Shown one piece after another: positions 34,797 through 57,876 of a DNA stretch of 64,000 nucleotides. Within the stretch, counting starts at the first letter, position 1, and each line of letters begins with the position of its first letter. The stretch is from NCBI RefSeq assembly GCF_031191205.1, contig NZ_CP133470.1:1123501-1187500 (forward strand), written 5' to 3'. The DNA is from Haemophilus parainfluenzae ATCC 33392. GTDB lineage: Bacteria > Pseudomonadota > Gammaproteobacteria > Enterobacterales > Pasteurellaceae. Made by a program: the position numbers and the translations under genes. The notes below the pieces were generated by a model. It ran no database searches. It had not been told where the DNA came from and saw only the letters and a program-made list of their open reading frames with translations.

Positions 34797-34855
34797 TTTT
34801 TTATCTCAATTATTCATTATTAGACTAGTACAAACAATTTTGTACTGTAAATGTT

Positions 34856-35584: not shown

Positions 35585-35587
35585 TTT

Positions 35588-37253: not shown

Positions 37254-37261
37254 AGAGATTC

Positions 37262-37762: not shown

Positions 37763-37788
37763 AAAGTGCGGTCATTTTTATGCATTTT

Positions 37789-40065: not shown

Positions 40066-40078
40066 CTTTTACAATCGT

Positions 40079-40663: not shown

Positions 40664-40665
40664 TA

Positions 40666-41109
40666 TTATTCCCCTTCAGATACAAAAGTAGGATGAGTTT
40701 TGACCGCACTTTGCCAACATGGTGGTGTTTGTAATTGCATTTCGCGTGTTTGCATACTAACGGCTACTTGGGTGGTACTTGCCGTGGTTAATTTTTGATT
40801 GGTTTTAGCATCAAAAATAACATAATCAATGCGCAAACAAGTTTCATATTCGACTACTTTTAATTCAATTCGGATTTTTTGACGAAATAATGCTGGGTTA
40901 ACATATTTAATATTAAGTTGAACGATTGGCCAACCAAACCCTTGTTTTTTCATAACATCATAGGTATAGCCAATTTCCTCTAGGAATTGACAGCGTGCCA
41001 TCTCAAGGTATTTGACGTAATGCCCATGCCACATAATATCCATCGAGTCGACATCAAAGAATTGCACTTCGAATTCAGAATTATGACGGCAAAAAACATG
41101 TTTTTTCAT
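40666..41109 (-). CDS. apeK: Hotdog thioesterase ApeK
   Basis: 147 residues of the 4HBT type: FEVQFFDVDSMDIMWHGHYVKYLEMARCQFLE contains the catalytic aspartate region. Its role is probably to release or proofread aryl polyene acyl chains. It overlaps the acyltransferase gene by 4 bases (ATGA). Confidence 0.82.
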   Translation of the reverse strand: MKKHVFCRHNSEFEVQFFDVDSMDIMWHGHYVKYLEMARCQFLEEIGYTYDVMKKQGFGWPIVQLNIKYVNPALFRQKIRIELKVVEYETCLRIDYVIFDAKTNQKLTTASTTQVAVSMQTREMQLQTPPCWQSAVKTHPTFVSEGE

Positions 41110-42044
41110 TTTTTATCATTCCAAAAGTTATAAAAGTTAAACCAAAGTAGAGGATTTTCTGCACATTCTTTGGCAAGTAAGTCTGCATATTGTTGCATGA
41201 CTTGTTTAATATTTTCTTCTCGCGCTTTGCCACGCCCGCTAATTGGGGGAGAAAAACGGCGCAATTTCATTCGATATTGTCCTTTTTCTTTAAGGCAAAA
41301 AATTGTATTTAAAGGTGCTTTTAAAATACTTGCAAATAGCCACGCACCTTGAGGGAATTCAGCATAATGGCCAAGGAAGTTGACTGATTGTGTTTTATCG
41401 CCACGGATAGGTACGCGATCAGCCGCAATCGCAATCCATTCACCTTGCTCTAAGCGTTGAGAAAGCTCTAACATTTTTTGCGCATCTAAATCTTCAACTT
41501 GAATAAGGGGTAAGGCATCTGCACCGGCTTCAACTAATGCTTTATTAAAAGCTTCAGCATTTTTGCTATGTACTAATACATTCAAATGAAAGTTTTTGTG
41601 TTGTCCGCTATCGACTAATGCTCGACAAATCTCGATGTTACCAAAATGCGAGCAAACAAGAATCTGACCTCGTCCACCTTGATCTACATCGCCATATAAA
41701 TTATCAGCATCATCGACAATTAAATCCGTGTAATGGATTTTCCGCTGCCAAACCGCAAAATTGTCGCAAATGATTTCACCAAAAAAGAGAAACTGACGAA
41801 ATACAGAAAATGAGGGTAAATGACAATGTGGAAACTGTTGTTTGAGACGGTGTTGGTAAGTTTTAATATTATTTCGCGCTTCTTTTGCCGTGAGATAAAA
41901 ATAACAAACCACCACAAATGTGGCGATTTTAATTAACCATAATGGGCAATATTTCACGATTAATCGCGTGATATTTAAGAAGAACGCATTCCCTCGCTCA
42001 GATTGTTTCGCCCAATGTTGGCTATTCTCAGTTGATTGATTCAT
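41106..42044 (-). CDS. apeJ: APE-cluster acyltransferase (LpxL-like; C-terminal half of ApeJ)
   Basis: 312 residues with an N-terminal membrane helix and the lipid A acyltransferase motif VCSHFGNIEICR (H-x4-E). In E. coli APE clusters, ApeJ joins a glycosyltransferase and this acyltransferase in one protein; here they are two genes sharing ATGA. It likely transfers the polyene acyl group to the glycolipid anchor. Confidence 0.75.
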   Translation of the reverse strand: MNQSTENSQHWAKQSERGNAFFLNITRLIVKYCPLWLIKIATFVVVCYFYLTAKEARNNIKTYQHRLKQQFPHCHLPSFSVFRQFLFFGEIICDNFAVWQRKIHYTDLIVDDADNLYGDVDQGGRGQILVCSHFGNIEICRALVDSGQHKNFHLNVLVHSKNAEAFNKALVEAGADALPLIQVEDLDAQKMLELSQRLEQGEWIAIAADRVPIRGDKTQSVNFLGHYAEFPQGAWLFASILKAPLNTIFCLKEKGQYRMKLRRFSPPISGRGKAREENIKQVMQQYADLLAKECAENPLLWFNFYNFWNDKK

Positions 42045-42769
42045 AGCGGCTTTCCGGTTAATAAGCGTTTTAACATCCCAAAAAATAAATACATGTGCAT
42101 TTTACTGATTAACACATTGTCTTTCCAAGCATTGAAATGTGAGACACCATTTTTATCGTAGGAAACGGGGGAGTCAACCCAAATTAATGGTATTTGGTAC
42201 CAGTGAGCCTTGATGAGAATTTCGATATCAAAATCCATGCGGTTTCCGACATGTTCATTATCGAGAATTTCAATGGTGCGATTTAATGGATACAAGCGAA
42301 AGCCACACATGCCATCTTTAATATCGAGAGAAAGCGTGTGAATGGCATTCCAAAAATCTGTAATTTTTCTCCCATAAAGTCGGGATTTAGGCGCATCATC
42401 ACCATAGATGGGTTTACCACAAATAAGTGCGGTCGGATTTTCAAGCATTTTTTGTTGCATTGAAAGGGCATCAATCAGATTGTGTTGGCCATCTGCATCC
42501 ACTTGCAAGGCATGTGTAAATCCTTGCTCAAATGCTAATCTAAAACCTACTTTCATCGCGCCACCTTTACCTTGATTTTGTGGGCAATAATGAATATGTA
42601 GGTTGTCTTTTTCTGAAAGAGAAGCTAATGATTTTTTATGCTGTTCAGATGATCCATCATCAACCACTAATACAGGTAAATTTAGCTTGTGTAATTGGTT
42701 AATTACATTGCCAATTTTGTCAGAATGATTGTAGTGCGGGATAATCGCAATAAGTTTCGGTTCCATCAT
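42041..42769 (-). CDS. APE-cluster glycosyltransferase family 2 (N-terminal half of ApeJ)
   Basis: 242 residues, GT2: nucleotide-sugar strand IIPHYNHSDKIGNVINQL, VVDDGSSEQHKK, and acceptor/metal motif QVDADGQHN. It is cytosolic, without membrane helices. It is coupled by a 4-base overlap to the acyltransferase, with which it forms the equivalent of ApeJ. Confidence 0.78.
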   Translation of the reverse strand: MMEPKLIAIIPHYNHSDKIGNVINQLHKLNLPVLVVDDGSSEQHKKSLASLSEKDNLHIHYCPQNQGKGGAMKVGFRLAFEQGFTHALQVDADGQHNLIDALSMQQKMLENPTALICGKPIYGDDAPKSRLYGRKITDFWNAIHTLSLDIKDGMCGFRLYPLNRTIEILDNEHVGNRMDFDIEILIKAHWYQIPLIWVDSPVSYDKNGVSHFNAWKDNVLISKMHMYLFFGMLKRLLTGKPL

Positions 42770-42775
42770 AGCAAG

Positions 42776-44083
42776 TTAAAATTGTTCTTCTTTTTCATGT
42801 AAAAATATGGCATCAAAATCTGCTCGACTAATCTTGAATTGGCTATTACGTGGCAATTTGTTAGTAAATCGCCAAAAGCGTGGTAAGCCTGAATGTTCCT
42901 GGGTTTTACTTAAATGGAGCCGGAGTTGTTTTAATAATTCAGCCCGTCCTTTTTGTAGATAAAAGGAAATGCCTTCTTCCTTCAATTCAACCCAAGCAGC
43001 AGGGCGTAAATGATTAGGGTGTTGTGCAACATAGCAATCTCGAATATAAGGGTGTTTCAGTAGGTCTTGTTCAATTCGAACTAGAGAAATACGCTTATCG
43101 CCAAATTTAACGATGCGATCAATGCGTCCTAATAAGTTAAATTGATTACCGATGATTTCAACACCATCTGCTGTTTGCTCACGCTGTTCAAGCCAAGGTG
43201 ATTCAACCCATAACGCATTTTCTTCATTTACCCCGATTTTAGTTACGGGTGTAGGGGTCCAAAGCCCGGCTTGTTCACGAAACGCAATGACGCCCGTTTC
43301 TGTACTACCATAGCCTTCAATGGTTTTAGTTTTAAGCTTGGCGCGCATGGCTGTTGCGGTTTCTTCTGGCAGCATCCCACCTGAAGATAGAATGCCTAAA
43401 ATACGACATTGATGAAGTTGAGGTTCATCTAAATTTAAATGGGTCAGTAATGCAGGGCTACTAACCCAAATAGACTGTTTCGCAATAAGGCTTTCTGCAA
43501 TCATATATTCTGGATAAGGGAGCTGTTTGCGGCCAATTGACCAGCCCATTGTCAGCGGTAACATGACTCGATAGGATAGACCATAGTGGTGCTGTGCAGA
43601 AACGCTTGAGACAATATGGATGCCATTTCCTTCCGGGAAAGGAAGTGACTGACTGATTGCTTCAGATTCTTGCCACATTTTTTCAGCTGTTTTCACCATG
43701 ATTTTAGGTTGTCCACTACTTCCTGATGTTTTTAGCCAAATTTCAGTTTGACAATGTTTATCAATGAAGAAATCTTTTTTATCAACAACTTGTGAAATGC
43801 CGTAAGTGTTGAATTTATTGTCATCAAATAACATATCAGCATTATCACGAATCCATTCTTGATTTTCATCGAGAAGATTAGGTGGAAGCAAAATTCGGGT
43901 TTTAGCATCAAAACAGGCAAGCATTGCACAGGCATAGTTTGCGGCATCCTCAAACCAAAATGCTGCACTTTGAATATTATCTTGTTGGAGTTGTTGGCTG
44001 ATTTGTTGACAACGATAAGTAAAATCTTGCCAGCGCCATTCTGGATTTAATGCAATAAGTGAGTTAGGTTGATGTTTATTCAT
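42776..44083 (-). CDS. apeH: Acyl/aryl-ACP adenylating ligase ApeH
   Basis: 435 residues of the AMP-binding superfamily. It has the phosphate loop WLKTSGSSGQPK and EGYGSTETGV, and a lysine-bearing tail (RNSQFKISRADFD). In APE clusters ApeH activates 4-hydroxybenzoate-type starter for the ACP. A related ligase, fused to a dehydratase, lies at 44608. It overlaps apeG by 8 bases. Confidence 0.82.
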   Translation of the reverse strand: MNKHQPNSLIALNPEWRWQDFTYRCQQISQQLQQDNIQSAAFWFEDAANYACAMLACFDAKTRILLPPNLLDENQEWIRDNADMLFDDNKFNTYGISQVVDKKDFFIDKHCQTEIWLKTSGSSGQPKIMVKTAEKMWQESEAISQSLPFPEGNGIHIVSSVSAQHHYGLSYRVMLPLTMGWSIGRKQLPYPEYMIAESLIAKQSIWVSSPALLTHLNLDEPQLHQCRILGILSSGGMLPEETATAMRAKLKTKTIEGYGSTETGVIAFREQAGLWTPTPVTKIGVNEENALWVESPWLEQREQTADGVEIIGNQFNLLGRIDRIVKFGDKRISLVRIEQDLLKHPYIRDCYVAQHPNHLRPAAWVELKEEGISFYLQKGRAELLKQLRLHLSKTQEHSGLPRFWRFTNKLPRNSQFKISRADFDAIFLHEKEEQF

Positions 44084-44633
44084 AGTGATTCCGTTTTACG
44101 CGTTGACGAATGAGCCATTCAATACTCATAACTAGGCCCATAATAATGTAAGAAATAACCCCAGTATAAATTGCCCAATATTCTAATAAGTTAAATGCAA
44201 TAAAGAGCGTTGAAAGCAAAATATTTAAACAAAATACACTGCACCAGACTTGGGTTACTCGGCGAGTATATTGAATAGCTTGAGTATTGAGATTAGGCGT
44301 TTGTAAACGAGCTAATCTTTCAACCAATGATTGAGATTGGAATAGACTTCCGCCAAATAACACCAACATAATGCCATTCATTAAAATAGGGTACCAATAC
44401 ATCATATCGAGTGAGCGTTGCCACCCCACAAGGAATAATAGGATAGCCATGCTTAATGCAAAAATTCTTTGCCCCTTATGCGGGTGTATTAGGCTTTTAA
44501 TCAACCATAATAAACTCATCACATAAGGTAACGTATGCAAGAGTTGGTCTGCTTGAAAGAAAAGCCAAATAATCGGATAAGCTATGGCTGTTAGCGCAAG
44601 CAATATATTAACAATCAGTAGGATGATCTTCAT
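44076..44633 (-). CDS. apeG: APE-cluster membrane protein ApeG (COG4648)
   Basis: 185 residues with about five hydrophobic helices (first: ILLIVNILLALTAIAYPIIW). The family, COG4648, is found almost only beside aryl polyene genes; its role is unknown. It starts 26 bases inside the end of the ligase-dehydratase gene and runs into apeH. Confidence 0.78.
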   Translation of the reverse strand: MKIILLIVNILLALTAIAYPIIWLFFQADQLLHTLPYVMSLLWLIKSLIHPHKGQRIFALSMAILLFLVGWQRSLDMMYWYPILMNGIMLVLFGGSLFQSQSLVERLARLQTPNLNTQAIQYTRRVTQVWCSVFCLNILLSTLFIAFNLLEYWAIYTGVISYIIMGLVMSIEWLIRQRVKRNHYE

Positions 44634-46290
44634 GCTCTATGATGGCTAATCCAGTACAGCAAGTTTCATTATTGGCAAGTAATTGAAATGCCATTCTATT
44701 TTTTGATGAATCCCATTTTAATTGAATATCAAAGCGATCATTCGGCCGTAAGAATGTTTGATACTTCAGCTTATCGAATGAACGAATAATGACTTCTTTA
44801 CCAAAAAATGCCTTTATTTTTTCCGAAATCCATTGTAATTCAATGACGCCAGGGACTAATGGAAATTCAGCGAAGTGATCTTTTAGATACACTAAATCAA
44901 GTGGCACAATACCGGTTGAGATTTGTGAATTTTCATTTTTGCTTTGTTCAAGCCAAATCGCATCCTTACAGGTTTCTAAACAAGTGCGGTTAAATTCCAG
45001 CTTATTTATTTTTGACTGACTATTACGTGGTAATTGATAAGTAAATCGCCAGAAACGAGGGATGGCTGCTTTTTCTTGAGAATGCTCTAAGAAAAGTTTT
45101 AGCTTATGAATAAGCGCTCTTCGACCTTTCTCTCTAAAAAATTGAATACCTTGTTCAGTTAAACCAATCCAGGCGGCAAGACGAGATTTCTCAGGATGTT
45201 GAGCAATATAACAATCTTCAATAAATTCGTGTTTATTCAATGCCGTTTCTACGCCTAATAAGGAAATTCTTTTATCTCCTATTTTGACGATGCGATCTGC
45301 TCGTCCTAATAAACGGAAACCGTTTTCTTCAAACTCAACCACATCTGCGGTTTGCTCACGCTTAGCAAGCCAAACCCCTTCAATCCATAACTCGCCTTGC
45401 TCATTGCTGCCAAGTTGGCTATTAGGTAATTGTCGCCAAAGGGAAATATCATCCCGAATAGCAATTGGACCCGTCTCCGTGCTGCCATAAATTTCGATAA
45501 CAGGATGATGAATTTTGGCTCTAATTTGCTCAGATAGCTCTTCAGCTAGAGCACCACCAGAAGAAATAATCCCCACAATATTTTCAGAAATTTTCATTTG
45601 TTGCCAATCTATGCCTGAAAGCATTGCTGGGCTGCTCACAATTACAGCTGATTGTGATTGATTCGCTTCTTGCATGACACATTCTGGATAGAAAAGTTGT
45701 TTTCGACCAATTTGCCAGCCGTTAACCAGTGACATCATAATATGTACGGTTAAGCCGTAAATATGCTGAATGCTTACAGTGCTAATTGCCGTAATGTTAT
45801 TTCCGGCAGGGAATGGTAAACCTTTGGCTAATACTTCTCCGCCTAACCACATTTGTTCTGCTGTTTTAATGATGGTTTTGGCTTCACCTGTGCTACCTGA
45901 GGTTTTCAACCAGATTTCACTTTGGTTACTAAAGTCAAAGAGCGGTCGATTTTTAGCAACATTTTCCCAATCTTGTGTGATGCCAAATTGAGAGATTTGC
46001 TCGCATTTTTCGAGTTCAATATCACGATCAGTAAGCCAAAGTTCAGAATTCTCATTTGCCCACTGAATACTTTCTTCAGTGAAATTAGGTGGGAAAAGAA
46101 CACGAACATTAGCATGCCAAGCACCTAGCAGTAGGCATGCCAATGTTGCACCATCTTCTAGCCATATCGTAACGGATCGAAGTTGACGCTGTTGCAATTC
46201 AGCTGAAATTTGAAACGCTCGGCACTCAAAATCAGCATAGAGCCAACTTGGGTGCTGAGCAATAAGAGAAGTCGGTAAGTAAGGTGTCAT
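44608..46290 (-). CDS. Fused adenylating ligase + hotdog dehydratase (ApeH-ApeI type)
   Basis: 560 residues. Residues 1 to about 440 are a second adenylating enzyme (WLKTSGSTGEAK; EIYGSTETGP). The last 110 hold a FabA/FabZ-like hotdog domain (LKDHFAEFPLVPGVIELQWIS), equivalent to ApeI, which is otherwise missing. In the E. coli cluster these are separate genes. So the cell has two ligase domains and two dehydratases. It is placed between apeF and apeG, sharing TAATG with apeF. Confidence 0.82.
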   Translation of the reverse strand: MTPYLPTSLIAQHPSWLYADFECRAFQISAELQQRQLRSVTIWLEDGATLACLLLGAWHANVRVLFPPNFTEESIQWANENSELWLTDRDIELEKCEQISQFGITQDWENVAKNRPLFDFSNQSEIWLKTSGSTGEAKTIIKTAEQMWLGGEVLAKGLPFPAGNNITAISTVSIQHIYGLTVHIMMSLVNGWQIGRKQLFYPECVMQEANQSQSAVIVSSPAMLSGIDWQQMKISENIVGIISSGGALAEELSEQIRAKIHHPVIEIYGSTETGPIAIRDDISLWRQLPNSQLGSNEQGELWIEGVWLAKREQTADVVEFEENGFRLLGRADRIVKIGDKRISLLGVETALNKHEFIEDCYIAQHPEKSRLAAWIGLTEQGIQFFREKGRRALIHKLKLFLEHSQEKAAIPRFWRFTYQLPRNSQSKINKLEFNRTCLETCKDAIWLEQSKNENSQISTGIVPLDLVYLKDHFAEFPLVPGVIELQWISEKIKAFFGKEVIIRSFDKLKYQTFLRPNDRFDIQLKWDSSKNRMAFQLLANNETCCTGLAIIEHEDHPTDC

Positions 46291-46541
46291 TATTGTGCGT
46301 TTTGACTAAGTTTTAGAACCGCCTGAACCACGTCATCTACAGTACGCACATTGCGGAAATCTTCCGCTTGAAGTTTATGCCCTGTTTTACGTTTAATATG
46401 ATCGATTAAGTCGATAGCATCAATACTATCGATCTCTAAATCTTCATAAAGATTCGTTTCCGGCTTAATTCTTTCTGGTTCAATCTCAAATAAAGATTCC
46501 AGAGCTTCCGTTAATAAATCTCTGATTTCCTGTTCAGTCAT
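46290..46541 (-). CDS. apeF: Aryl polyene acyl carrier protein ApeF
   Basis: 83 residues; the phosphopantetheine serine is in EIDSIDAIDLIDHIK. It is one of a tandem ACP pair carrying starter or growing polyene. The stop overlaps the start of the ligase-dehydratase gene (TAATG). Confidence 0.87.
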   Translation of the reverse strand: MTEQEIRDLLTEALESLFEIEPERIKPETNLYEDLEIDSIDAIDLIDHIKRKTGHKLQAEDFRNVRTVDDVVQAVLKLSQNAQ

Positions 46542-46544
46542 GAA

Positions 46545-46808
46545 TTATGCCTCACCTTTTTGTGTACGAATAAAGTGAGCAAGTGTTGCTACGCTTTCAA
46601 AGTGATCTCTTAATTGAGTTTGTTCACCATCTAATTGTAGACCAAATGTTTTTTGAACAGCTAAGCCTAATTCTAAGGCATCAACTGAATCTAAACCTAG
46701 CCCTTCAGATGAAAAAAGAGGCATGTCAGTTTCAATATCGTCGATACTGATGTCTTCTAATGCCAGGCTATCAATGATAAGTTGTTTTAATTGTTGTTCA
46801 AGTTGCAT
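46545..46808 (-). CDS. apeE: Aryl polyene acyl carrier protein ApeE
   Basis: 87 residues; phosphopantetheine site GLGLDSVDALELGLAV. It shares the 4-base TAATG junction with apeD and lies 3 bases before apeF. Confidence 0.87.
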   Translation of the reverse strand: MQLEQQLKQLIIDSLALEDISIDDIETDMPLFSSEGLGLDSVDALELGLAVQKTFGLQLDGEQTQLRDHFESVATLAHFIRTQKGEA

Positions 46809-47587
46809 TATTGCGATCCTTTTTGTGAGGTTTGAGAATTAAAATAATCTTCTAAATATTTCGTTAAACGACGAGATGCCATCGGGATAGATTGATTTTC
46901 TATCCATTCTTGTGGATCGATATCATCGCCAACGAACAATTCATAATGAATTTGTTTGTCTGGTATTTTATACCATGGATGACCTTTTTTTAGGCTTAAT
47001 GGATTCATCCTGATCGTGACAGGGGTAATGACTTTTGCACTACGTAAACCAATTGAAACAGCACCGCGATTTAATTTGATGATGCCATCCCAGCCAGTTC
47101 TTGTTCCTTCTGGAAACAATAAGAGACTCTCTTGTTGCAATACACGCTCACAATGATCCAAGAGTTCTAGAGACTCGGTATTGGGGATAAAACCACAAGC
47201 GAGAATTTGATTCCTCATCGTGGGATTGTGTAAAAGATCTTTTTTCACAATACAGTTAAGTGAAGGCGCTTTACTGAGAATCAGTACTACATCAAGTAGA
47301 GATGGGTGATTGACCACAACTAATTGACCTGGACGTCCCAATTTTTCAAACCCTTGATAAGTCACTTTTAAAGCACCCGCACAAGACAGGTAACGAATAA
47401 AATAATACCAAATTCCGCCAACAAAACGACGAACTTTTAACTGGGTAGATAAATTAGCGTGCTTTCCTTTTTGGGCAAAAGGAAGTAAAACGAGTTGTAA
47501 TAGTGTGCCTGCCACAGCCCAAAATAAAAAGGCAATGGCGGTAGCCAGCCAACGTTTAAGAAAATCTAATTTTTCTGCCATAGCCAA
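46808..47587 (-). CDS. apeD: Lysophospholipid (1-acylglycerol-3-phosphate) acyltransferase ApeD
   Basis: 259 residues of the PlsC family: VVNHPSLLDVVLI (H-x4-D) and LLFPEGTRTGWDG, with an N-terminal membrane helix. It could attach the polyene acyl group to a lipid. It overlaps the chain-length-factor gene by 22 bases, which indicates translational coupling. Confidence 0.8.
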   Translation of the reverse strand: MAMAEKLDFLKRWLATAIAFLFWAVAGTLLQLVLLPFAQKGKHANLSTQLKVRRFVGGIWYYFIRYLSCAGALKVTYQGFEKLGRPGQLVVVNHPSLLDVVLILSKAPSLNCIVKKDLLHNPTMRNQILACGFIPNTESLELLDHCERVLQQESLLLFPEGTRTGWDGIIKLNRGAVSIGLRSAKVITPVTIRMNPLSLKKGHPWYKIPDKQIHYELFVGDDIDPQEWIENQSIPMASRRLTKYLEDYFNSQTSQKGSQ

Positions 47588-48303
47588 GTTCCATTTGAAC
47601 TACTCGGTGTGTGCCAAGTGCGACTTTCAAGATATTGGTGAGAAACCCAAGTTAGTGCATTATCGGTAACATCATGATTAAAAGGGGAATCTGTAAGCGT
47701 TAATTGATATTGCTCTCCTTGAGTGACGATTAAAGCCAAAGCATAACCTAAAGGTGTACGAATGACAGGTTGAGCATTATATTTTGCTTCAAGCGGCGAT
47801 TCAGCAATAACAACAAGCACTTTTTCATGCCCTTCATTAAGCAATAATGTCGCTTCTAATAGTGCGGTTTCAAGGTTGTCCACTCGAGCCATAATCGAAG
47901 TGGTTTCTGATTTAACTTGACGTAATTCAGACCATTGTCCAATTAATGCATTATGAACTGAGAGACTAAAAGAGGTGGGAGAAACCTCCCCCTCTTTTAA
48001 TAAGGAATGCCACAACGCAAAATTACGATTCATTTCACTGTTTGATGAGGCATAAACCACAGGCATATCTGCATTTTCTCCTACCAAATCCCACGCAGCC
48101 TCAAAAAAAAGACGGGCTGAGTCACTTAAACGACGGCGTTTTAGCGGGGGTAAAAAGGATAATTTAGGTGCAAAGTCTTCAAATGTTTCACATTGATTTC
48201 GCAAATAAGCATAGCCTTGTTTCCAATCATCTGCGGTTAGCGATTTATTGCAAACAATATTCCACCCTTGAAGTGAGAAAGAGAAATTACAGATTTCAGT
48301 CAT
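47566..48303 (-). CDS. apeC: Chain-length-factor-like beta-ketoacyl synthase ApeC
   Basis: 245 residues, shorter than a full ketosynthase and lacking the catalytic cysteine. SLSVHNALIGQWSEL fits the PF13723 chain-length-factor type. In E. coli its homologue pairs with ApeO to limit chain length. It starts 16 bases after the lipoprotein gene at 48320, so that lipoprotein may head this operon. Confidence 0.8.
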   Translation of the reverse strand: MTEICNFSFSLQGWNIVCNKSLTADDWKQGYAYLRNQCETFEDFAPKLSFLPPLKRRRLSDSARLFFEAAWDLVGENADMPVVYASSNSEMNRNFALWHSLLKEGEVSPTSFSLSVHNALIGQWSELRQVKSETTSIMARVDNLETALLEATLLLNEGHEKVLVVIAESPLEAKYNAQPVIRTPLGYALALIVTQGEQYQLTLTDSPFNHDVTDNALTWVSHQYLESRTWHTPSSSNGTWLWQKN

Positions 48304-49338: not shown

Positions 49339-49379
49339 AAATAACACCTTAATTTATATAAATTAAGGTGTTATTTTTT
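49339..49379. terminator. Long bidirectional terminator separating the two APE units
   Basis: A perfect 17-bp stem (49339-49355 with 49360-49376) and 4-base loop, with T-run on the right. It overlaps the stop codon of the 195-aa gene on the minus strand (49371) and lies just after the plus-strand lipoprotein, so it ends both. Confidence 0.85.
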
Positions 49380-49958
49380 GATTTGCGAGAGAAAGTCTAA
49401 GTTTTTAGACATTGAATTCTCAAGAGATAAGAGATTAAACTCTATTTCTGCATCTTCCTTATTTTTAGAAATAAGCCAAAATACGGCCCCTTCAGTTTGC
49501 TCAGAATGTTCACTTTTTTCTAGCGTCCAACCGATTAAGGCGGATGATATTTCATCATTTTCAAGATCCAATAAGGCGAGTTTTAGTGGTTGCCAAATGG
49601 TTTGGTGGTTAATCGCTAAAAATACGGAGTTGGCAGAGGTTTGCAAGGTTTGAGTGAGTTGAAATGTCGCCGCGTTATTAATATTCGCCATAAAATCTAA
49701 AGGACTAGGCACATTTTGTTCCATCAGTTGATGAAACATTTTATCGAACTTGCTCGGCGAATTAAAAAACGATCCTAAGTAAATTCCTGTATTTTCATTA
49801 ATATAGGGTTTTAATGGTATCGCACCAAGTAAAGCGAGTTGAGTGAAACGGCTCAAACGACGAGCCTCGAGACCTTGTTCTTTGAGTCTCAGACGTAACG
49901 TTTTATCATCTACGCCATTGGCGATGAACTGATTAGTTTGTTTTATATAAAATGTCAT
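49371..49958 (-). CDS. Small ketosynthase-like (chain-length-factor-like) protein
   Basis: 195 residues. DFMANINNAATFQLTQ resembles the PF13723 pattern of ApeC, and no catalytic cysteine is present. It probably pairs with the ketosynthase just upstream (49955), with which it overlaps by ATGA. A second chain-length factor would let the right operon make a chain of its own. Last gene of that operon. Confidence 0.6.
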   Translation of the reverse strand: MTFYIKQTNQFIANGVDDKTLRLRLKEQGLEARRLSRFTQLALLGAIPLKPYINENTGIYLGSFFNSPSKFDKMFHQLMEQNVPSPLDFMANINNAATFQLTQTLQTSANSVFLAINHQTIWQPLKLALLDLENDEISSALIGWTLEKSEHSEQTEGAVFWLISKNKEDAEIEFNLLSLENSMSKNLDFLSQIKK

Positions 49959-50941
49959 TCACCCACCTTTAAAATCCATGCAATATTGCTACCGCCAAAA
50001 CCTAGAAAATAATTTAAAAAGTGACCGCACTTCACATTAGTTTTTTGTAAGTGTTCGATTAAAAATGCGGTTTCTAATGCACCACTAGCACCAAGTGTAT
50101 GTCCCATATAGGGTTTAACTAAAATGGTTTCGGTATTCGGGAAGCGTTCCTGTAAAACAGATTGTTCCATCTCATCGCTATTTCCCCCCACGCCATGCAC
50201 TTTAATGCCTTGAATGTTTTCTATTTTTAGATTTGTTTTCGCTAAACAGTTGGTGAGTAATTGACGTAATGCTGCTTCGCTACTGTTGGTCAGGTTTTCA
50301 TTATCTGTGATCGTTGTTATCCCCAATATTTCACATGGGAATGACTCGTTTTTTTCTGTTGAGAATGCGACACACCCAACGCCTTCGCCTAATACAATGC
50401 CCGTAGGATTGATGAAAGGCTGGTATTCATTGGCTTGTGATAATAGGTTCATGGATTGGAAATGTTCAAAAGTAAGACGATTAAACATCTCAAAACCAAT
50501 GACCAAAGCCTTTTTATACATCCCAGCTTTCAGCATTTTGTATGCATAACCAATGGCTTGTGCTGAAGAGGTACAAGACGTGGCAAAACTAAATACTTCT
50601 GTCTGATAGCAATTTCCTAAATCTTCGGCGATGGCAGTAAGGTTATATTCTTTCGGTAATGCTTGATGATGAGCTACGCGCATTTCACAATCACTGATCA
50701 TATAAGCGGTAGAACCAAGTAGAATAGGAATATTTTTTAGCTCAGATTTATCCCAACCAGCACGTCGCAAAGTGCGGTCAATTTCGAGGTCAATATAGTG
50801 ATAGAGTCGTTCTAGTGACAACAGCGGTTCCTTAAATGCGTTGAAATAAGGAAAACTAAGCGGTTGGCCTAGCATATTAGAGGTTCTTAATCCGAGCTTT
50901 TCTGCAAATCGAGCAGAAACAGCGTTGATATAAACGTTCAT
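49955..50941 (-). CDS. Beta-ketoacyl-ACP synthase (second cluster ketosynthase)
   Basis: 328 residues, about 80 shorter than ApeO/ApeR but with all three catalytic elements: FATSCTSSAQAIGYAY (Cys), IKVHGVGGNSDE (His) and KPYMGHTLGASGALETA (His). It shares TAATG with the ACP gene. Probably the condensing partner of the 195-aa protein. Confidence 0.75.
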   Translation of the reverse strand: MNVYINAVSARFAEKLGLRTSNMLGQPLSFPYFNAFKEPLLSLERLYHYIDLEIDRTLRRAGWDKSELKNIPILLGSTAYMISDCEMRVAHHQALPKEYNLTAIAEDLGNCYQTEVFSFATSCTSSAQAIGYAYKMLKAGMYKKALVIGFEMFNRLTFEHFQSMNLLSQANEYQPFINPTGIVLGEGVGCVAFSTEKNESFPCEILGITTITDNENLTNSSEAALRQLLTNCLAKTNLKIENIQGIKVHGVGGNSDEMEQSVLQERFPNTETILVKPYMGHTLGASGALETAFLIEHLQKTNVKCGHFLNYFLGFGGSNIAWILKVGE

Positions 50942-51231
50942 TAGATTTTACTATGCTGTTCGCGGATAAATGCTGCAAGATCACGTACGTTCATCATATG
51001 TTTACGCACCATGCGATCACCCTGTAAACGTACACCAAAATGAGCCTGTAGTGCTACCACAACTTGCAACGCATCTAATGAATCTAATTGAATACGGCTT
51101 TGGTCTCCAAATAGCCATTCATCATCACTAATTTCGGCAGGATCAAATTCATCTTTTTCTGTTTCTTGCACGATGAGTTTTTTGAGTTCCAGCTCAAGTG
51201 CCGGTGCTTCCAGTGTAAAAGTATAAGCCAT
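50941..51231 (-). CDS. Acyl carrier protein (DarC-like position)
   Basis: 96 residues; phosphopantetheine serine in RIQLDSLDALQVVVALQ. It is longer than AcpP by about 20 residues at the N-terminus. Third cluster ACP; dialkylresorcinol operons also have one (DarC). Shared TAATG junctions on both sides. Confidence 0.8.
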   Translation of the reverse strand: MAYTFTLEAPALELELKKLIVQETEKDEFDPAEISDDEWLFGDQSRIQLDSLDALQVVVALQAHFGVRLQGDRMVRKHMMNVRDLAAFIREQHSKI

Positions 51232-52472
51232 TAGAATCTCGCTTGTTTAGTTAATTGTCGTTGATAAATGAAAGTCGCTAAAAGTAATGTGATTGCCCCA
51301 AATCCACTTAATAAATAGAGTGGTTGTTGTATTTGGTTAAGGTGATAGTGATTTAATAATAAATTTTGGAAACCACTTAATGCCCAGCCCATAGGCGAAA
51401 ATTGTGAAATAGTTTGCATGATTTCTGGCATTACATAAACAGGCACCATAATACCACCAGTGGCTGCCATGATAATGATGCCGCCTCCGCCTAACACGAC
51501 CGCATGTTCCGTTGTTCTCGCTACCACGCTAATTAACAAACCATAGCCAAGTGCAGCAAGGCTTACTGCACTGGATAATACGATGTAAGGTAACCAACTT
51601 CCTGAAAGCGTAAATGCGGGCATATCAAGTGCAGGGAGGACAAAATAACCCAGCGCGACCATGCCGACAAATTGTAATTGGTTAATCAAAAAATAAGGAA
51701 TTAATTTGGCAATAATCAAACTCAATGCAGAAGCCCGCGCCATGCGTAAACGAGTTAGCGTATTGGTCTGACGTTCCATTGCCATCACGTTAGATAGAGG
51801 AATCATAATAAAGAACATGCCAAAAATCAGCCAAGCCGGTACACTATGTTGTACGGAGCTTGGTTTGCTCACTTCCTTACCATGACGATTGACATAAATT
51901 TCTTGCCACAAATCTTTCGCGAGATAATCATTAATTTGAGCAAATTTGCTATCTAACTCTTTATTGATTTTATTCTGAATGTCTTTGATTGGTTTGCGTT
52001 TATTATTTTCTAACGTGATGTGATTATCAGCTAAATAGTCATTTAAACGCAGTTGAGAGTAATGTTTTTGCAATACACCTTTCACACCTAGTAGCCAACT
52101 GCGATCTACGCTAGGATTCAACCAAAGTTGTAAAGCCTGTTCTTCTGAAAGTGCGGTCTGTTTTTGATTAGGATTTAAAATTAGCAAGTCAAATTTACCC
52201 GCTTGTAAATCCGCTTGATATTGAGCTAATTCAGACAACGGAGCTTGTTTAACCGCAAGATTTTCCTTCTTGAGTTGAGTGAGGAAATCATCATTTAGCT
52301 GATTTTTTTCACTTAATAGCACAATCTCTGAACGATTACTTAATGCATTGTCGTTACTCAATGCTGCCGACATAATCAACATAAACAAAATCGGCATAAT
52401 GAATAATACAGCAACACCATGTAGATCGCGGCTTAATAGGCGCATTTCTTTAAAAATTGATGCAATTAACAT
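51231..52472 (-). CDS. ABC-2 type exporter permease
   Basis: 413 residues: one N-terminal helix, a large extracytoplasmic domain (about residues 50-190), then about five helices. The ABC-2 membrane part contains MIPLSNVMAMERQTNTLTRLRMARAS. It works with the ATPase upstream (52466), which it overlaps by 7 bases. The cargo may be the acyl or pigment product. Confidence 0.8.
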   Translation of the reverse strand: MLIASIFKEMRLLSRDLHGVAVLFIMPILFMLIMSAALSNDNALSNRSEIVLLSEKNQLNDDFLTQLKKENLAVKQAPLSELAQYQADLQAGKFDLLILNPNQKQTALSEEQALQLWLNPSVDRSWLLGVKGVLQKHYSQLRLNDYLADNHITLENNKRKPIKDIQNKINKELDSKFAQINDYLAKDLWQEIYVNRHGKEVSKPSSVQHSVPAWLIFGMFFIMIPLSNVMAMERQTNTLTRLRMARASALSLIIAKLIPYFLINQLQFVGMVALGYFVLPALDMPAFTLSGSWLPYIVLSSAVSLAALGYGLLISVVARTTEHAVVLGGGGIIIMAATGGIMVPVYVMPEIMQTISQFSPMGWALSGFQNLLLNHYHLNQIQQPLYLLSGFGAITLLLATFIYQRQLTKQARF

Positions 52473-53188
52473 GTTTTTCCCGCCTGATTTAAAAAATCTA
52501 AATAAAAACGTTCCAAACTTTGTCCTTCTTCTAAAATGCCTTGCACAGTGCCTTGATAAATGAGATTACCTTCATTTAACAGCACTAATTTGTCACATAA
52601 TTGCTCAATTTCTTGCAAATAATGAGAGGTATAAATCACCGTCACACCTTGCTGTTTCAACGCCGCTACGCTATCTAAAATAAATTGACGGGACTGAGGG
52701 TCAATACCCACCGTTATCTCATCTAGAAAAATCACTTTCGGACGGTTAATTAAGCCAATAGCAAAATTAAGACGTCGTTTTAATCCGCCGGATAAATGTT
52801 TCGCGAGCTTATTTTTATGAGAGGTTAAATCAACTTTAGCGAGTAGTTCTAATAAATAACCTTTATCTCGAACGTCATACAATGACGCAAAAAATTTCAG
52901 ATTCTCCCAAACCGTGAGCAAGGGATAAAATGCAAAATCTTGTGGTACTAACGAAATCTGATGGCGCTGTTTTTTACTTAATTTTGCAAAAGGTACACCA
53001 TCAAAATAAATTTCGCCTTGTTGCACAGATTGTAAGCCAGCAAGTAGAGACATTAAGGTCGTTTTACCTGCACCATTCGGACCTAAAAGTCCAATCGTGG
53101 AGGCTGATTCAATATCAAAATTGACCGCACTTAATGCATTTTTTTCTGAATTTGAATAATTATGCGAAATGTTATTTATTTCTATCAT
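52466..53188 (-). CDS. ABC-2 exporter ATP-binding protein
   Basis: 240 residues. Walker A GPNGAGKTT, signature LSGGLKRRLN, Walker B VIFLDEITVGID, H-loop YTSHY. The glutamate after Walker B is present but the usual PTVG(L)D is ITVGID. It forms the exporter with the permease and lies 8 bases after the HEPN gene. Confidence 0.87.
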   Translation of the reverse strand: MIEINNISHNYSNSEKNALSAVNFDIESASTIGLLGPNGAGKTTLMSLLAGLQSVQQGEIYFDGVPFAKLSKKQRHQISLVPQDFAFYPLLTVWENLKFFASLYDVRDKGYLLELLAKVDLTSHKNKLAKHLSGGLKRRLNFAIGLINRPKVIFLDEITVGIDPQSRQFILDSVAALKQQGVTVIYTSHYLQEIEQLCDKLVLLNEGNLIYQGTVQGILEEGQSLERFYLDFLNQAGKTC

Positions 53189-53196
53189 GAAATTAT

Positions 53197-54393
53197 TTAA
53201 TCTATTGTTTTTATATCAGAGATGTATTTTATAATATTATTAATTTCTTTTATTTTTTCTATTATTTCTGTCTCGTCTATTTCGTTGATCCCAGATTGAT
53301 GTATTAAATTGTTCCTAAATCCGCATATGTCTTTTAATTTCTCTATGATATTTATTGGTAATATGTGTTCGTTTTTATATAAATATAGAATATTAACCAT
53401 TAATGGCTTATTTAGGTTTTTGGGAGGGTTTTCCGAATTTAGTGCGATTATATCTTGAACATGAATTTTTAATATATTATACAATTCGATGAATTTATAT
53501 GCATTATTCCCAATGAAAGATGTAATGTTTTCAGATATTTCATCCCTATCTTTATCCTCTACATTTATTTCATTTATTGATTGAAGGGCGGACTCCAATA
53601 TTTTACATATTTCATTAGATAATTTTTCTAGCATTTTATAGTTGTCTTTAGTAAATTTTTTACTATGTGCAATCATGCATCTAAGTTCATATAATTTTTC
53701 CCATTTCGTTTTTAGTAAATTTGAGTCACAATTTAGTCGTTTGGAAAAAAAACGCTCCCAATTGCTATAAGGTAACTTAGATTTTAGGTTATCAAGTAAT
53801 TTTTCATCATTTGGTGATGCATCTTTAATTAATTTAATTAACTGGGATGTATCTGTTTTTGAGATATTTTTAAACAGGAAATCAGATAGTTTTATGAAGT
53901 CAACTTCATACAGAAAGTTAATTTCTCCTTTTTGGTCTCTTATTGAATGAAGAACTTCTTTTGGAGTTGATTCATCTTTCCATTCATATCCAACACTAAT
54001 GGTCATAAACTTATAAATTAGTTTTCTCATTAGCATTTCAGTCCGATATACTATACTATAACCTTTTTGACAATAATATTCACTTATAGCGTCTCCGAGC
54101 TCTACTACATCTTTATTGCTTATTTTAAAGCATATGTTTCTAATTTCTTTTAACAAACGCTCAAACTCATTTTCATCCTCAATTTTTGTTAGCTCTATAT
54201 TCAAATTATAGTAATCTGAGTTATTAGGTAATTTCCCATTTTTTAGTGTGTATTTGAAAGTTTTATCTTGAAACTTTATTTTATTTCCTTCTATTTTTAT
54301 ATCATTGTGTATTGATAATAAATTTTTAAACTGTTTAGGTGAACTACATAAATTTTTTTCAGATTCAAATGCAATTAAATATTCCGTGTTCAT
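53197..54393 (-). CDS. Double-HEPN-domain protein, candidate ribonuclease (defence-type cargo)
   Basis: 398 residues, alpha-rich and visibly more AT-rich than its neighbours. Two R-x4-H motifs are present: R238-CMIA-H243 in LYELRCMIAHSKKF, and R360-NNLI-H365 in DICGFRNNLIHQSG. These match the metal-independent HEPN ribonuclease active site. The N-terminal segment YRTEMLMRKLIYKFM resembles that upstream of HEPN domains in Swt1-type proteins. HEPN RNases act in abortive infection and toxin systems. No antitoxin or partner is adjacent. The SD (AAGGAA) overlaps the stop of the BtrH gene, so it is co-translated with the pigment operon. It has no uptake signal. Confidence 0.7.
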   Translation of the reverse strand: MNTEYLIAFESEKNLCSSPKQFKNLLSIHNDIKIEGNKIKFQDKTFKYTLKNGKLPNNSDYYNLNIELTKIEDENEFERLLKEIRNICFKISNKDVVELGDAISEYYCQKGYSIVYRTEMLMRKLIYKFMTISVGYEWKDESTPKEVLHSIRDQKGEINFLYEVDFIKLSDFLFKNISKTDTSQLIKLIKDASPNDEKLLDNLKSKLPYSNWERFFSKRLNCDSNLLKTKWEKLYELRCMIAHSKKFTKDNYKMLEKLSNEICKILESALQSINEINVEDKDRDEISENITSFIGNNAYKFIELYNILKIHVQDIIALNSENPPKNLNKPLMVNILYLYKNEHILPINIIEKLKDICGFRNNLIHQSGINEIDETEIIEKIKEINNIIKYISDIKTID

Positions 54394-54403
54394 AAAATGT
54401 TCC

Positions 54404-55387
54404 TTATGATAAAATTCTAAAAAGTTTATATTCTAAACTTGCGATATCCCGCAAATATTCCGCTATGATATGATACCCTTCGATTGTAGGCTTCTTACAT
54501 TGTTTCACGCATAATCCTGCAAATTGACGCCACATATCGCCAATTTCCGTCATTTGTTCAGAAGCCTGTTTGTATTTTGGCTCTTGACAGATATCAGCGG
54601 CTTGTTCAAGGAAATAGGCGTATAAATAACGGAAGCCAGCACCGCCAGTGCCGATTTCTTCTTGCATACGCACGATGTGACCCAGATATAAGCGTTTGTA
54701 TTTGTCTGAAGGGTGATTCGCTAGCTTTTCAATTTGTTTTGCAACAGTACGAATGCCTTTTACACCGACGAAAAAGAGTGGTGCTAACATTTGCTTCGCA
54801 TTTTTTCGAATAGCTTTACGGGTAATACTTGGTAAATCAATCTTCGTTAAGTCAGGTTGGCTTTCAAAGTAATACATCAACCCTTTTGGTGCTAGTACGC
54901 CTTTTACAAAACGCGCGCGTTGTAAATCTTCAGCCGCACAACGCTGTACCGTTTCAAAAACGGGATCGCTAATTAAGTAGTCATTTTGCTCTTTGCCGTA
55001 CACAATTAAATTGTGAGCATTAAAATGGAAACGCATTTCTGGTGGGAAATAAGGCAACCAGAAAACAGAGGTTTGTAAACCAACTAATTTATTTTCAGCT
55101 AATGCGAGATTGAGTGCATCTTGTCCAGCTTGTGGTGCACGAAATTTTTGTATTTTTAACCGCACTTTTAAACGTTTTGCCACATTTTTAATGATAGATT
55201 TTGGGGGCATGCGGTAGGATATAAGTGGCATTCCATTAACTTTGACTAATGGAATATAAACAAAGGTCAACGCTGAGGCTAAGCCGAAAACCATCGCTTC
55301 GTTAAAATCGACACCTTGTGCTTTCAACATAGTGGACATGACACCACTTTCGCAGTGAGCCGTGTGCTGATGCTGGAAATTGTTCAT
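54404..55387 (-). CDS. BtrH-type acyltransferase (BtrH_N domain)
   Basis: 327 residues. The N-terminal 150 residues match the papain-like BtrH fold: HTAHCESGVMSTMLK contains Cys12 as likely nucleophile, and HFNAHNLIVYGKEQNDYLISDP has His125 and Asp141. BtrH of butirosin moves an acyl group from an ACP to an acceptor amine. Here it may move a chain from an ACP onto a resorcinol or sugar. It lies 26 bases after a 129-aa gene. No membrane helix. Confidence 0.7.
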   Translation of the reverse strand: MNNFQHQHTAHCESGVMSTMLKAQGVDFNEAMVFGLASALTFVYIPLVKVNGMPLISYRMPPKSIIKNVAKRLKVRLKIQKFRAPQAGQDALNLALAENKLVGLQTSVFWLPYFPPEMRFHFNAHNLIVYGKEQNDYLISDPVFETVQRCAAEDLQRARFVKGVLAPKGLMYYFESQPDLTKIDLPSITRKAIRKNAKQMLAPLFFVGVKGIRTVAKQIEKLANHPSDKYKRLYLGHIVRMQEEIGTGGAGFRYLYAYFLEQAADICQEPKYKQASEQMTEIGDMWRQFAGLCVKQCKKPTIEGYHIIAEYLRDIASLEYKLFRILS

Positions 55388-55413
55388 AAGAATTAATATA
55401 TCACTGTTATTTT

Positions 55414-55803
55414 TTAGATCGTTTTTAATGTTGAAGTTGATACACCAAATGCTTCTGCATATTTGGCTAATACATTATCCGAGAGTTTATCAAAGATGCT
55501 CGGTTTAAAATGTCGCTTAATTTGCCACTGCCAAAACCCTGTGGTTTGAGCGAGCGTTTGAAGATCGAAACGATAACGGTACATATAATAAAAGAGCGGT
55601 GATTTTTCACCGCGTTTTACCGCATCTAAGGCTTCATTGGTCAGTTGATTAAATTCTTCAACGGCTTGTTCTGTAACAAATGCTTCCGTATCCCAACCGG
55701 TCGTGGTGCCAGTTTTATAATGACCATTTTGAGTGGCATAAATGACTTTTTTTTGCCCTCGAAAAATTTTACTGTCATCCTGTGGGATTTCATTAATGTC
55801 CAT
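55414..55803 (-). CDS. 129-aa protein of unknown function in the DAR operon
   Basis: I do not recognise it. It is 129 residues, mixed, with a tyrosine-rich middle (SPLFYYMYRYRFDLQTLAQ) and a C-terminus NVLAKYAEAFGVSTSTLKTI that looks like the end of a small helical, XRE-like bundle. It overlaps the end of the DarB-like gene by 11 bases, so it is coupled to it. Confidence 0.6.
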   Translation of the reverse strand: MDINEIPQDDSKIFRGQKKVIYATQNGHYKTGTTTGWDTEAFVTEQAVEEFNQLTNEALDAVKRGEKSPLFYYMYRYRFDLQTLAQTTGFWQWQIKRHFKPSIFDKLSDNVLAKYAEAFGVSTSTLKTI

Positions 55804-56953
55804 TCACGACCTCAAGTAGCATAAAACAAGAGGAGAAACGACCGCTCTCTGGAATATAGCACAATACTTTTTGCCCATTTTTGAGTGGGAATTTCTCTAG
55901 AAACTCTTGTAAAATGATATAAATCGATGCCGAGCCTGTATTTCCTTTGCTTTCAAGATTTGTGAACCATTTTTCTTGTGGAATCTCGAAATTAATATTT
56001 TTCAGACCATCTAATAATTTATCTCGGAAAAAGCCTGAGGAATAATGAGGTAAGAAATAATCAATCTCGTCCGCTTTTAAATCATATTTATCAATTAAGC
56101 GTAAGAGCGCATTCTCAACTGTGCAACGCACAATATTTTCATTGAGTAATTTGACATCTTGTTTGACGGCCATCAGGCTGCGCGCTTCACGCTCTTCTTT
56201 AGTGACGTTTTTCCAACTCACAAATTGTTCATCGCGAATTTCTGCGCCCGCATACATACAAACAGGCATTTCGTTGGCGTAAGAAATAAGATCAATCCAG
56301 TGGATCTTGAAGCTGAGACCATGTTGGTTGGGTTGATTACTTAATTGTACAGCGCCAGCACCGTCAGAAAGCATCCAACGTAGGAAATCCTTTTCAAAAC
56401 CGATTTCCGGTTTAGCTTCATCTAACAGTCTTTGTTCAATTTCGGCTTGAAAATGTTCACCACGCATGATGGCAGATGCCGCTTCAGATGCCACGGCAAT
56501 TGAACTTTGATGTTCACCAGTTCGCACTGCATTATAAGCATGCTTCATTGCAGCCATACCAGCTACACAAACGCCCGCGGTTGTTAGCACTTCATAAGGT
56601 GGGGCATTAGGAATTAAACCATGTACCATGACACCTTGCCCCGGCATCATTTGATCGGGATAAGAGGTACCGCATGCCAAGCAACTCACCTCATTGACAT
56701 TCATCCCTTGGCGAATTAAATCATTAATGGCTTCTACTGCAAGCTCAGTGCTAGTATGTGTCGTTTCTCGGGTTTTCGGATTAATTGCATAATGACGCGT
56801 TTTTATCGCATTCGAACGTAAGATCATTTTACGTACACGGGATGGTGTATTACCAATCATACCGAGTACTTCTTCCATTTGATCATTTGTTACAGGTTCA
56901 TTTGGTAAAAATGCAGCAACTCGATTAATATAAACATCATGTAGTGAAGTCAA
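55793..56953 (-). CDS. darB: DarB-like ketosynthase III (dialkylresorcinol condensation)
   Basis: 386 residues, longer than FabH. Catalytic Cys129 (TTAGVCVAGMAAMK), His (DYFLPHYSSGFF, about residue 304) and Asn (ESKGNTGSAS, about 335). The family condenses two fatty-acid-derived precursors head to head into cyclohexanedione or resorcinol. It starts 2 bases after the DarA-like gene. Substrate not proven. Confidence 0.65.
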   Translation of the reverse strand: MTSLHDVYINRVAAFLPNEPVTNDQMEEVLGMIGNTPSRVRKMILRSNAIKTRHYAINPKTRETTHTSTELAVEAINDLIRQGMNVNEVSCLACGTSYPDQMMPGQGVMVHGLIPNAPPYEVLTTAGVCVAGMAAMKHAYNAVRTGEHQSSIAVASEAASAIMRGEHFQAEIEQRLLDEAKPEIGFEKDFLRWMLSDGAGAVQLSNQPNQHGLSFKIHWIDLISYANEMPVCMYAGAEIRDEQFVSWKNVTKEEREARSLMAVKQDVKLLNENIVRCTVENALLRLIDKYDLKADEIDYFLPHYSSGFFRDKLLDGLKNINFEIPQEKWFTNLESKGNTGSASIYIILQEFLEKFPLKNGQKVLCYIPESGRFSSCFMLLEVVNGH

Positions 56954-56955
56954 AA

Positions 56956-57876
56956 TTATTCCCCTGATGGTTCAGCAAAATAGCGCTTTTGGCGCGCCAG
57001 TTTTTCTTTTAATAATGGTTTTAATAAGCGTTTTACCACGGCTGAAAGTGGTACAACAGTGAGAATTAGTATAATCAAAAATACGATATAAAAATAGAGT
57101 ACGGCTTGACGAAAAGCAGGTGAAATTTGACCGCACTTTAACAGCAATCTTCCCCAGATGTAGAAACTCCGATGACCGACTTTTTCGCTCATCATTAATT
57201 TTTCATCAATTTTGACGGCGCCCATGTTTTGGAAAAGTGATTTATCTAAAGGGTGATTTTCGTTCAGAATTTGTACTAAACGGCATCCAAAACGTTGCAT
57301 ATCTTGCATATCTGCATCACTAATTCCTGCGCTTGGTAGCCATGAAAAATAACGTTTTTTTCCACTGAACATCCATGCTGGGGTCGTAATAAAACTTGCC
57401 CAAGCATTGGATTGATCCGTTTTAACCACATTGCCAATTAAATTAGCATCAAGTGCGGTCAGCATTTTTTTCATTTTTTCTTGTGCCATCAACCACATAT
57501 TACGGCAGCCAATCAGTGTAATGACAGGCGTGTTTTTTAAGATTTTAGCTTGTTCAGATTGCAAAAATGCAGTGATAGGTTGTGAAGGCGATAGAAACCA
57601 TACGCTGTAAGCGATGATGACTAAATCGTATTTTTCACGTTGTAATATTGGCTTTTCAATCGGCGCTGGTTTGAGATGAACCGATTCTGGAAACTGATTA
57701 AAAAAGGGAATGAATTTCCAAGGGAAAGAATAGGGTTGAATCGGTTTAATTTGGGCAACTTCAATGGCAATATTTTCTTGTTGCCTTAATGGTTCAAGAA
57801 AATGTTGAGTCAGTTCATTTAACTGCCCCGTTTGTGAATAAGAAATAACCAAAATGTGTTTTTGCGATTGAGACAT
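56956..57876 (-). CDS. darA: DarA-like dialkylresorcinol enzyme (flavodoxin-fold)
   Basis: 306 residues. The start HILVISYSQTGQLNELTQHFLEPL is a flavodoxin-like FMN strand-loop, then LVIIAYSVWFLSPSQPI. A membrane helix near 260-285 (AVLYFYIVFLIILILTVVP) ends the chain, so it is membrane-anchored. Similar proteins next to DarB are called dialkylresorcinol condensing/aromatising enzymes. First gene of the right operon; a USS is inside. Confidence 0.6.
   Translation of the reverse strand: MSQSQKHILVISYSQTGQLNELTQHFLEPLRQQENIAIEVAQIKPIQPYSFPWKFIPFFNQFPESVHLKPAPIEKPILQREKYDLVIIAYSVWFLSPSQPITAFLQSEQAKILKNTPVITLIGCRNMWLMAQEKMKKMLTALDANLIGNVVKTDQSNAWASFITTPAWMFSGKKRYFSWLPSAGISDADMQDMQRFGCRLVQILNENHPLDKSLFQNMGAVKIDEKLMMSEKVGHRSFYIWGRLLLKCGQISPAFRQAVLYFYIVFLIILILTVVPLSAVVKRLLKPLLKEKLARQKRYFAEPSGE

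Follow-up and report, generated by a model that had tools for sequence, protein, structure and literature searches.

What might a ten-gene run encode in Haemophilus parainfluenzae ATCC 33392 when it adjoins an aryl-polyene cluster and one of its genes does not seem to belong to it? The run lies on the minus strand (49371-57876) of the 64,000-nucleotide stretch that was analysed (NZ_CP133470.1, positions 1,123,501 to 1,187,500), which is called the window here and whose own numbering is used, and the polyene cluster is on the same strand. An earlier note on this DNA had proposed a dialkylresorcinol (DAR) pathway with its own ketosynthase (KS) set, a BtrH transferase and an exporter. We consider it likely that the run is an arcuflavin-type dar operon, paired with the adjacent aryl-polyene cluster and carrying a HEPN-type gene as cargo. 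Every gene named earlier was found on the minus strand at the coordinates then given, while a DarG-family gene (55414-55803) and a 398-aa gene (53197-54393) had been passed over. The translational coupling claimed for the whole set does not extend to the BtrH and ABC ATPase genes, which are 1.2 kb apart here owing to the inserted 398-aa gene.

The two genes expected to form the resorcinol stand first. DarB (55793-56953, 386 aa, TTG start), the cyclising ketosynthase, scored 582 bits against NF005293, 'StlD/DarB family' (cut-off 450), which places it inside the family to which it had been assigned. Its best solved relative is StlD (5gk0, E 6e-121), and in 90 aligned rows C129 and H303 are invariant and N338 is 99% conserved. 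The preceding gene, separated by 2 nt, encodes a flavodoxin-like candidate for the DAR aromatase, DarA (56956-57876, 306 aa), in which S14, Q15, G17 and Q18 are invariant (90 rows) and a weak FMN_red match falls below the cut-off. Among the best 120 of its 1594 relatives several from Haemophilus, Aggregatibacter and Avibacterium are named dialkylresorcinol condensing enzyme, most of the other near ones are unnamed and some are called 'hypothetical protein'; the nearest is 97% identical and comes from a record labelled Haemophilus parainfluenzae. The DarA assignment is thus backed by the names of relatives and the position beside darB, and no curated NCBIfam model for it was matched among those searched, a weak flavodoxin hit aside.

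The remaining genes follow in close succession. The DarG-family protein (129 aa), which occupies the slot of Azoarcus darD and overlaps darB by 11 nt, reached 185 bits with NF053536 (cut-off 70) and missed the flexirubin-specific DarG model NF053545 (139 bits, cut-off 170). After a spacer of 26 nt comes darE (54404-55387, 327 aa; DarH in the naming of NCBIfam), a BtrH-type acyltransferase and candidate for the ester bond, with 509 bits for NF053550 (cut-off 300) and the Pfam domains BtrH_N and DUF4872. The Cys12/His125/Asp141 set pointed out in the earlier note is 99%, 100% and 100% conserved in 93 rows. Beyond the inserted gene lie the exporter genes darF (ATPase, 52466-53188, 240 aa; ABC_tran E 7.7e-30) and darI (ABC-2 permease, 51231-52472, 413 aa; ABC2_membrane_3 E 1.1e-29), overlapping by 7 nt. 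The acyl carrier protein (ACP) gene darC (50941-51231, 96 aa; PP-binding above cut-off; D50, S51 and L52 invariant in 63 rows) overlaps darI and darJ by 1 nt each. DarJ (49955-50941, 328 aa) is a ketosynthase with ketoacyl-synt N and C domains above cut-off and a complete C-H-H triad, C123, H249 and H281 being invariant in 72 rows. DarK (49371-49958, 195 aa), whose gene overlaps darJ by 4 nt, is an N-terminal KS-like fragment with a sub-threshold Ketoacyl-synt_2 match (E 0.0016); it had been described as lacking the catalytic cysteine and in fact has no cysteine at all. A search of DarK against PDB sequences returned nothing usable (best E 0.74). A promoter scan gave 36 sites in the real sequence and 35.6 in shuffled ones, hence no excess, and in an Rfam scan of 33000-59000 no family reached its gathering score.

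The adjoining cluster (33552-48303, minus strand) was recognised as an aryl-polyene cluster from matches to Pfam and to 6qsp, the ApeO:ApeC pair of Xenorhabdus. It encodes a KS, a ketoreductase, ApeP-like and ApeI-like dehydratases, two AMP ligases, two ACPs, LolA, MMPL, glycosyl- and acyltransferases and a KS-like partner. The ketosynthase (36033-37253) matches 6qsp_A (E 1.8e-89) and the short KS-like protein (47566-48303) matches 6qsp_B (E 1.2e-22). DarJ also matches 6qsp_A (E 9.7e-13), and DarJ and DarK may represent a second, diverged KS/KS-like pair of the kind found in the polyene cluster.

The pairing of the two gene sets extends beyond the window. DarB was found above the cut-off in 35 of 140 Pasteurellaceae genomes, two of them among the 11 of the window's own genus, so that the search for the same gene set elsewhere, suggested earlier, showed the cluster not to be rare. 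The acyltransferase at 41106-42044, used at E 1e-40 as a polyene marker, occurred in 50 of the 140, comprising 34 of the 35 dar-positive genomes versus 16 of the 105 dar-negative ones (Fisher p 4e-19, with related genomes counted as independent); in one of those 16 the marker is just 33% identical. In a collection of GTDB contigs 304 DarE-type stretches were present, the best 80 of which serve for the comparisons with dar loci outside the family. Dar genes were also seen in bee-gut relatives (two Gilliamella records and Frischella japonica, L057-L059). One locus of the window's genus (L118, genome G079) has a split operon, in which some 39 kb separate darA, darB and darD from a darE on the opposite strand. 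In another genome (L126, G093) part of the polyene cluster is still accompanied by darA, darB and darD, but neither darE nor the polyene acyltransferase was detected, and the cluster is perhaps decaying.

The dar cluster of Azoarcus BH72 is, in the excerpted text of PMC3949708, composed of darA, darB, darD (hypothetical), darE (BtrH-like), darF (ATPase), darG and darH (PHD and PilT domains), darI (permease), darC (ACP), darJ (KS) and darK (hypothetical). Nine of the ten window genes stand in the same darA-B-D-E-F-I-C-J-K order, as judged by order and family names, and in both organisms polyene genes are present in the genome; the Azoarcus operon also contains a toxin-antitoxin-like pair. The two differ in that the polyene genes are elsewhere in the genome of Azoarcus but adjacent in the window, and in that PHD/PilT genes fill the darF|darI joint there, whereas the HEPN-type gene fills darE|darF in the window. 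The same excerpts report that the product of the Azoarcus operon, arcuflavin, is a polyene-DAR hybrid and that free DAR was undetected in extracts. Because this operon has the same order and a hybrid product, the gene set and the idea of a Proteobacterial hybrid were already known, and the window holds a Pasteurellaceae copy.

Two other known systems are comparable. The flexirubin clusters of Chitinophaga and Flavobacterium share DarA, DarB and a polyene pathway, and yield a polyene-DAR ester according to the excerpts of PMC3992019; the window differs in missing the cut-off of the flexirubin-specific model and in the outcome of a Pfam scan of 20 neighbouring proteins, which turned up no aromatic (tyrosine) ammonia-lyase. 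Aryl-polyene clusters, such as that of Frischella perrara (PMC10104596), and the 6qsp complex resemble the window at 33552-48303, but the word 'resorcinol' is absent from the main text on Frischella perrara, while the window has dar genes attached. A survey (PMC11278768, excerpt) already lists clusters of the aryl-polyene type from Aggregatibacter. The flexirubin-like product that had been suggested keeps its basis in the pairing of dar and polyene genes, with the qualification that among described products Azoarcus arcuflavin comes closer than a flexirubin of Bacteroidetes. Judged from the genes, a flexirubin-like polyene-DAR hybrid is the likely product.

From the gene identities, their order, the conserved active sites and the linkage to polyene genes we infer the chemistry in this strain, the ester step being the most conditional. 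DarB would condense two acyl units derived from fatty acids into a cyclohexanedione, which DarA would oxidise to the 2,5-dialkylresorcinol. As darB and darA of Chitinophaga, when expressed heterologously, yielded a DAR (PMC3992019, excerpt), DarC, DarE, DarF, DarI, DarJ and DarK are left for other steps. DarC, DarJ and its cysteine-less partner DarK might provide or extend a dedicated acyl chain. DarE could take an acyl group, most likely the aryl polyene, off an ACP by means of Cys12/His125/Asp141 and esterify it to a resorcinol hydroxyl, and DarF/DarI would transport the pigment towards the envelope. The prediction is that cluster-bearing Pasteurellaceae, some near Haemophilus parainfluenzae and Aggregatibacter, make a polyene-DAR hybrid, a class so far described from Azoarcus and Bacteroidetes, and that DarE is the protein to consider first for forming the ester. 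The HEPN-type gene would be cargo at darE|darF, a joint which holds other cargo in other Pasteurellaceae.

The recurrence of cargo at such joints across the family is more novel than the pigment pathway. Joint gaps were measured in 34 other Pasteurellaceae dar loci, with a gap of more than 400 bp taken as an insert. Such gaps were found at 51 of 239 joints and in 27 of the 34 loci, with joints of related species being non-independent events. They were concentrated at darD|darE (22/31) and darE|darF (18/31), less frequent at darF|darI (5/29), darA|darB (4/33) and darI|darC (2/27), and absent at darB|darD (0/34), darC|darJ (0/27) and darJ|darK (0/27). Loci L114, L118 and L126, in which darE is missing from the fetched stretch, were counted where measurable, and in L130 the darD|darE gap is 977 or 2210 bp owing to two darD matches, both values exceeding 400. 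Of the 80 best DarE-type stretches, 61 represent dar loci from beyond Pasteurellaceae, and these had such gaps at 5 of 395 joints, two of these being 7-kb distances in Neisseria loci.

From the joints of more than 250 bp, together with those of the window, 73 open reading frames of at least 100 aa were picked mechanically, and 62 are on the operon strand. They fell into 36 clusters (at least 85 aa), of which 29 were scanned with Pfam, leaving out five found on the opposite strand only and two others. Fourteen of the 29 representatives match families of nuclease, toxin-antitoxin or defence type: HEPN_Swt1, SduA_C, AAA_21 twice, DUF4276 (beside AAA_21), TIR_2, PIN twice, GNAT (beside TacA1), TacA1, YhcG, SLFN_AlbA_2, PhdYeFM and GIY-YIG, with HEPN_Swt1 and TIR_2 below the cut-off. 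The other 15 comprise one each of RhuM, an IS200-like transposase, a weak AAA match, DUF1643 and ankyrin, and 10 with no Pfam match. A PADLOC scan of the 29 matched 232 models, many of them generic ATPase models. Since the 10 unmatched representatives share joints with Shedu, Schlafen, TIR, PIN and TacAT types in other species, the dar joints appear to be a place in which new defence genes could be sought.

The composition of the inserts sets them apart from the operon. The 52 inserts of more than 250 bp averaged a G+C of 0.328, and the 239 copies of dar genes averaged 0.429. The two uptake-signal 9-mers occurred 6 times in 59 kb of inserts versus 156 times in 202 kb of dar genes. The low G+C together with the few uptake signals suggests that the inserts entered the family recently from elsewhere, bearing in mind that low G+C by itself lowers the chance of these 9-mers. 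Copies of flanking gene ends were not found within 53 dar inserts at E 1e-3, and no insertion mechanism was recovered. At darE|darF one gene cluster recurs in eight loci (L123, L130, L134, L137, L139-L141 and L143); its L123 representative matches Y1_Tnp (IS200-like), and in the seven loci other than L123 inverted GTAGGGGCGGGTCCTGTGCCCGCCCG-type repeats flank the gene, as in REP-associated transposases.

Two operons served as controls. In the atp operon of 34 genomes none of 272 joints exceeded 400 bp, and in the his operon of 32 genomes (L178-L209) 96 of 202 did, which rules out dar as a unique hotspot. Within his, the hisB|hisH gap exceeded 400 bp in 30 of 31 cases, and hisA and hisF overlapped in all 32. 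In the window's own genome hisF was not found at E 1e-60, versus its presence in 32 of 35 dar-positive genomes, and the strain may require histidine.

Pasteurellaceae thus carry foreign genes at operon joints, and the insert of the window is one case. Hotspots for defence and toxin-antitoxin genes are known in bacterial genomes, and the dar joints resemble them in having variable, interchangeable cargo between conserved genes; they differ in that the slots are joints inside co-oriented biosynthetic operons. Tentatively, and with not quite an even chance, we suggest that non-essential operons such as dar and his are standing slots, in which foreign genes, singly or in pairs and often of defence or toxin-antitoxin type, sit precisely at cistron joints in the orientation of the operon, ride on its transcription and are exchanged between strains by natural transformation through conserved flanking genes rich in uptake signals, the HEPN-type gene being one passenger. 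The cause of the joint cargo, its dependence on transformation and its benefit are what we infer from these patterns. A somewhat less probable explanation, which nevertheless deserves serious weight, is that the inserts are products of ordinary horizontal transfer which a dispensable operon tolerates, whatever their function, so that defence and toxin-antitoxin genes are not favoured. It is favoured by the still higher frequency of his inserts and by their more mixed cargo, including GNAT, redoxin and metabolic domains (as judged by 25 of 47 families from a scan of 55 out of 66 clusters), which shares two clusters with dar, the RhuM and YhcG types, as well as by the 10 dar representatives that match nothing in Pfam and the seven of 36 clusters outside the scan. 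The 14 representatives of nuclease, HEPN, TIR, AAA_21, PIN, TacAT, Schlafen or Shedu type and the bias towards the operon strand speak against it. Among the papers listed in literature searches (titles and abstract openings, mostly open-licence) nothing was found on dar clusters of Pasteurellaceae or on cargo in their operons.

With respect to the product, it is also conceivable that dar makes a free or otherwise modified DAR that is exported by itself, with DarE serving another acceptor or charging DarC and the polyene being anchored by acyltransferases of its own cluster. A dialkylresorcinol in free form has been described from Pseudomonas chlororaphis (PMC6403133, excerpt), and dar does carry its own exporter. 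To follow DarE outside the family, DarB was sought at E 1e-100 or better in a class-wide sample of 369 genomes and was present in 23, of which 21 are outside Pasteurellaceae (19 of them above the cut-off). Sixteen of these 21 have DarE above its cut-off and 13 match the ApeP-like model, which may overlook divergent clusters, several of the genomes also being fragmented. In 17 controls drawn from the 346 genomes lacking DarB, neither DarE above cut-off nor an ApeP-like protein was detected, and there was one sub-cut-off DarE match (G152, 103 bits). Because DarE outside the family tracks dar and not the polyene genes, DarE belongs to dar, which also suits a DAR without polyene, and its handling of the polyene is neither supported nor excluded by this comparison. 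Even so, the linkage of dar to polyene genes within the family and the Azoarcus operon, from which the hybrid and no free DAR was reported, make a free or separately exported DAR unlikely.

Several results weigh against an arcuflavin-type pathway with defence-type cargo. An ApeP-like protein was present in 10 of the 16 non-family genomes with DarE and in 3 of the 5 without (Fisher p 1), or in 10 of 16 and 3 of 3 when the two genomes with sub-cut-off DarB are dropped; the polyene cluster carries acyltransferases of its own; and a search with DarE against PDB sequences gave no usable solved relative. The HEPN-type protein, for its part, reached 26.9 bits with HEPN_Swt1 (PF18731) against a cut-off of 27.5 and matched no PADLOC model. 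The arcuflavin-type pairing remains our preferred reading, and within it the ester-forming role proposed earlier for the BtrH protein is in keeping with its family and triad but gained nothing from the 21 non-family genomes, in which DarE and polyene genes were not associated. DarE is named as a candidate for the ester-forming enzyme.

The inserted gene itself (53197-54393, 398 aa) is foreign cargo and lies outside the dar pathway, as indicated by its deviant G+C (0.257 versus 0.357-0.409 for the dar genes), its detection in a single genome among 140 Pasteurellaceae (E 1e-8), the overlap of darE and darF by ATGA in relatives that are free of inserts at that joint (L111, L112, L113 and L116), and the genera of its named relatives. 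Among 76 matches in a large protein set the named ones come from Aeromonas, Pseudomonas, Kosakonia, Bacillus and others, and several homologues carry PF18731. R238 and H243 are invariant in 35 rows, and a second stretch, FRNxxVH, is present in the consensus; RX4H is the motif of HEPN proteins. The protein thus has two RX4H stretches. To judge from its family, the gene is probably an RNase-type one that serves defence or encodes a toxin. The profile found nothing usable among PDB sequences (best E 0.12). That it is a working part of dar, for instance a regulator of the operon mRNA, as its strand, the 8 and 10 bases to the flanking genes and the lack of any terminator-like site found at its edges might suggest, is very improbable given its base composition, its absence from the other 34 sets of Pasteurellaceae dar inserts and, at E 1e-8, from the 139 other family genomes, and the unrelated genes that fill the same joint elsewhere.

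Gaps of more than 400 bp were also seen in the aryl-polyene clusters (39 of 453), and 28 of these are at the joints LpxAT|4HBT (13) and MMPL|orf166 (15). The families that recur at these two joints are probably native polyene genes and were kept out of the cargo count. In the window, two polyene-cluster proteins of 166 and 185 aa (37262-37762 and 44076-44633) have no Pfam match, and both occur at joints of their own in at least 22 of 33 polyene loci.

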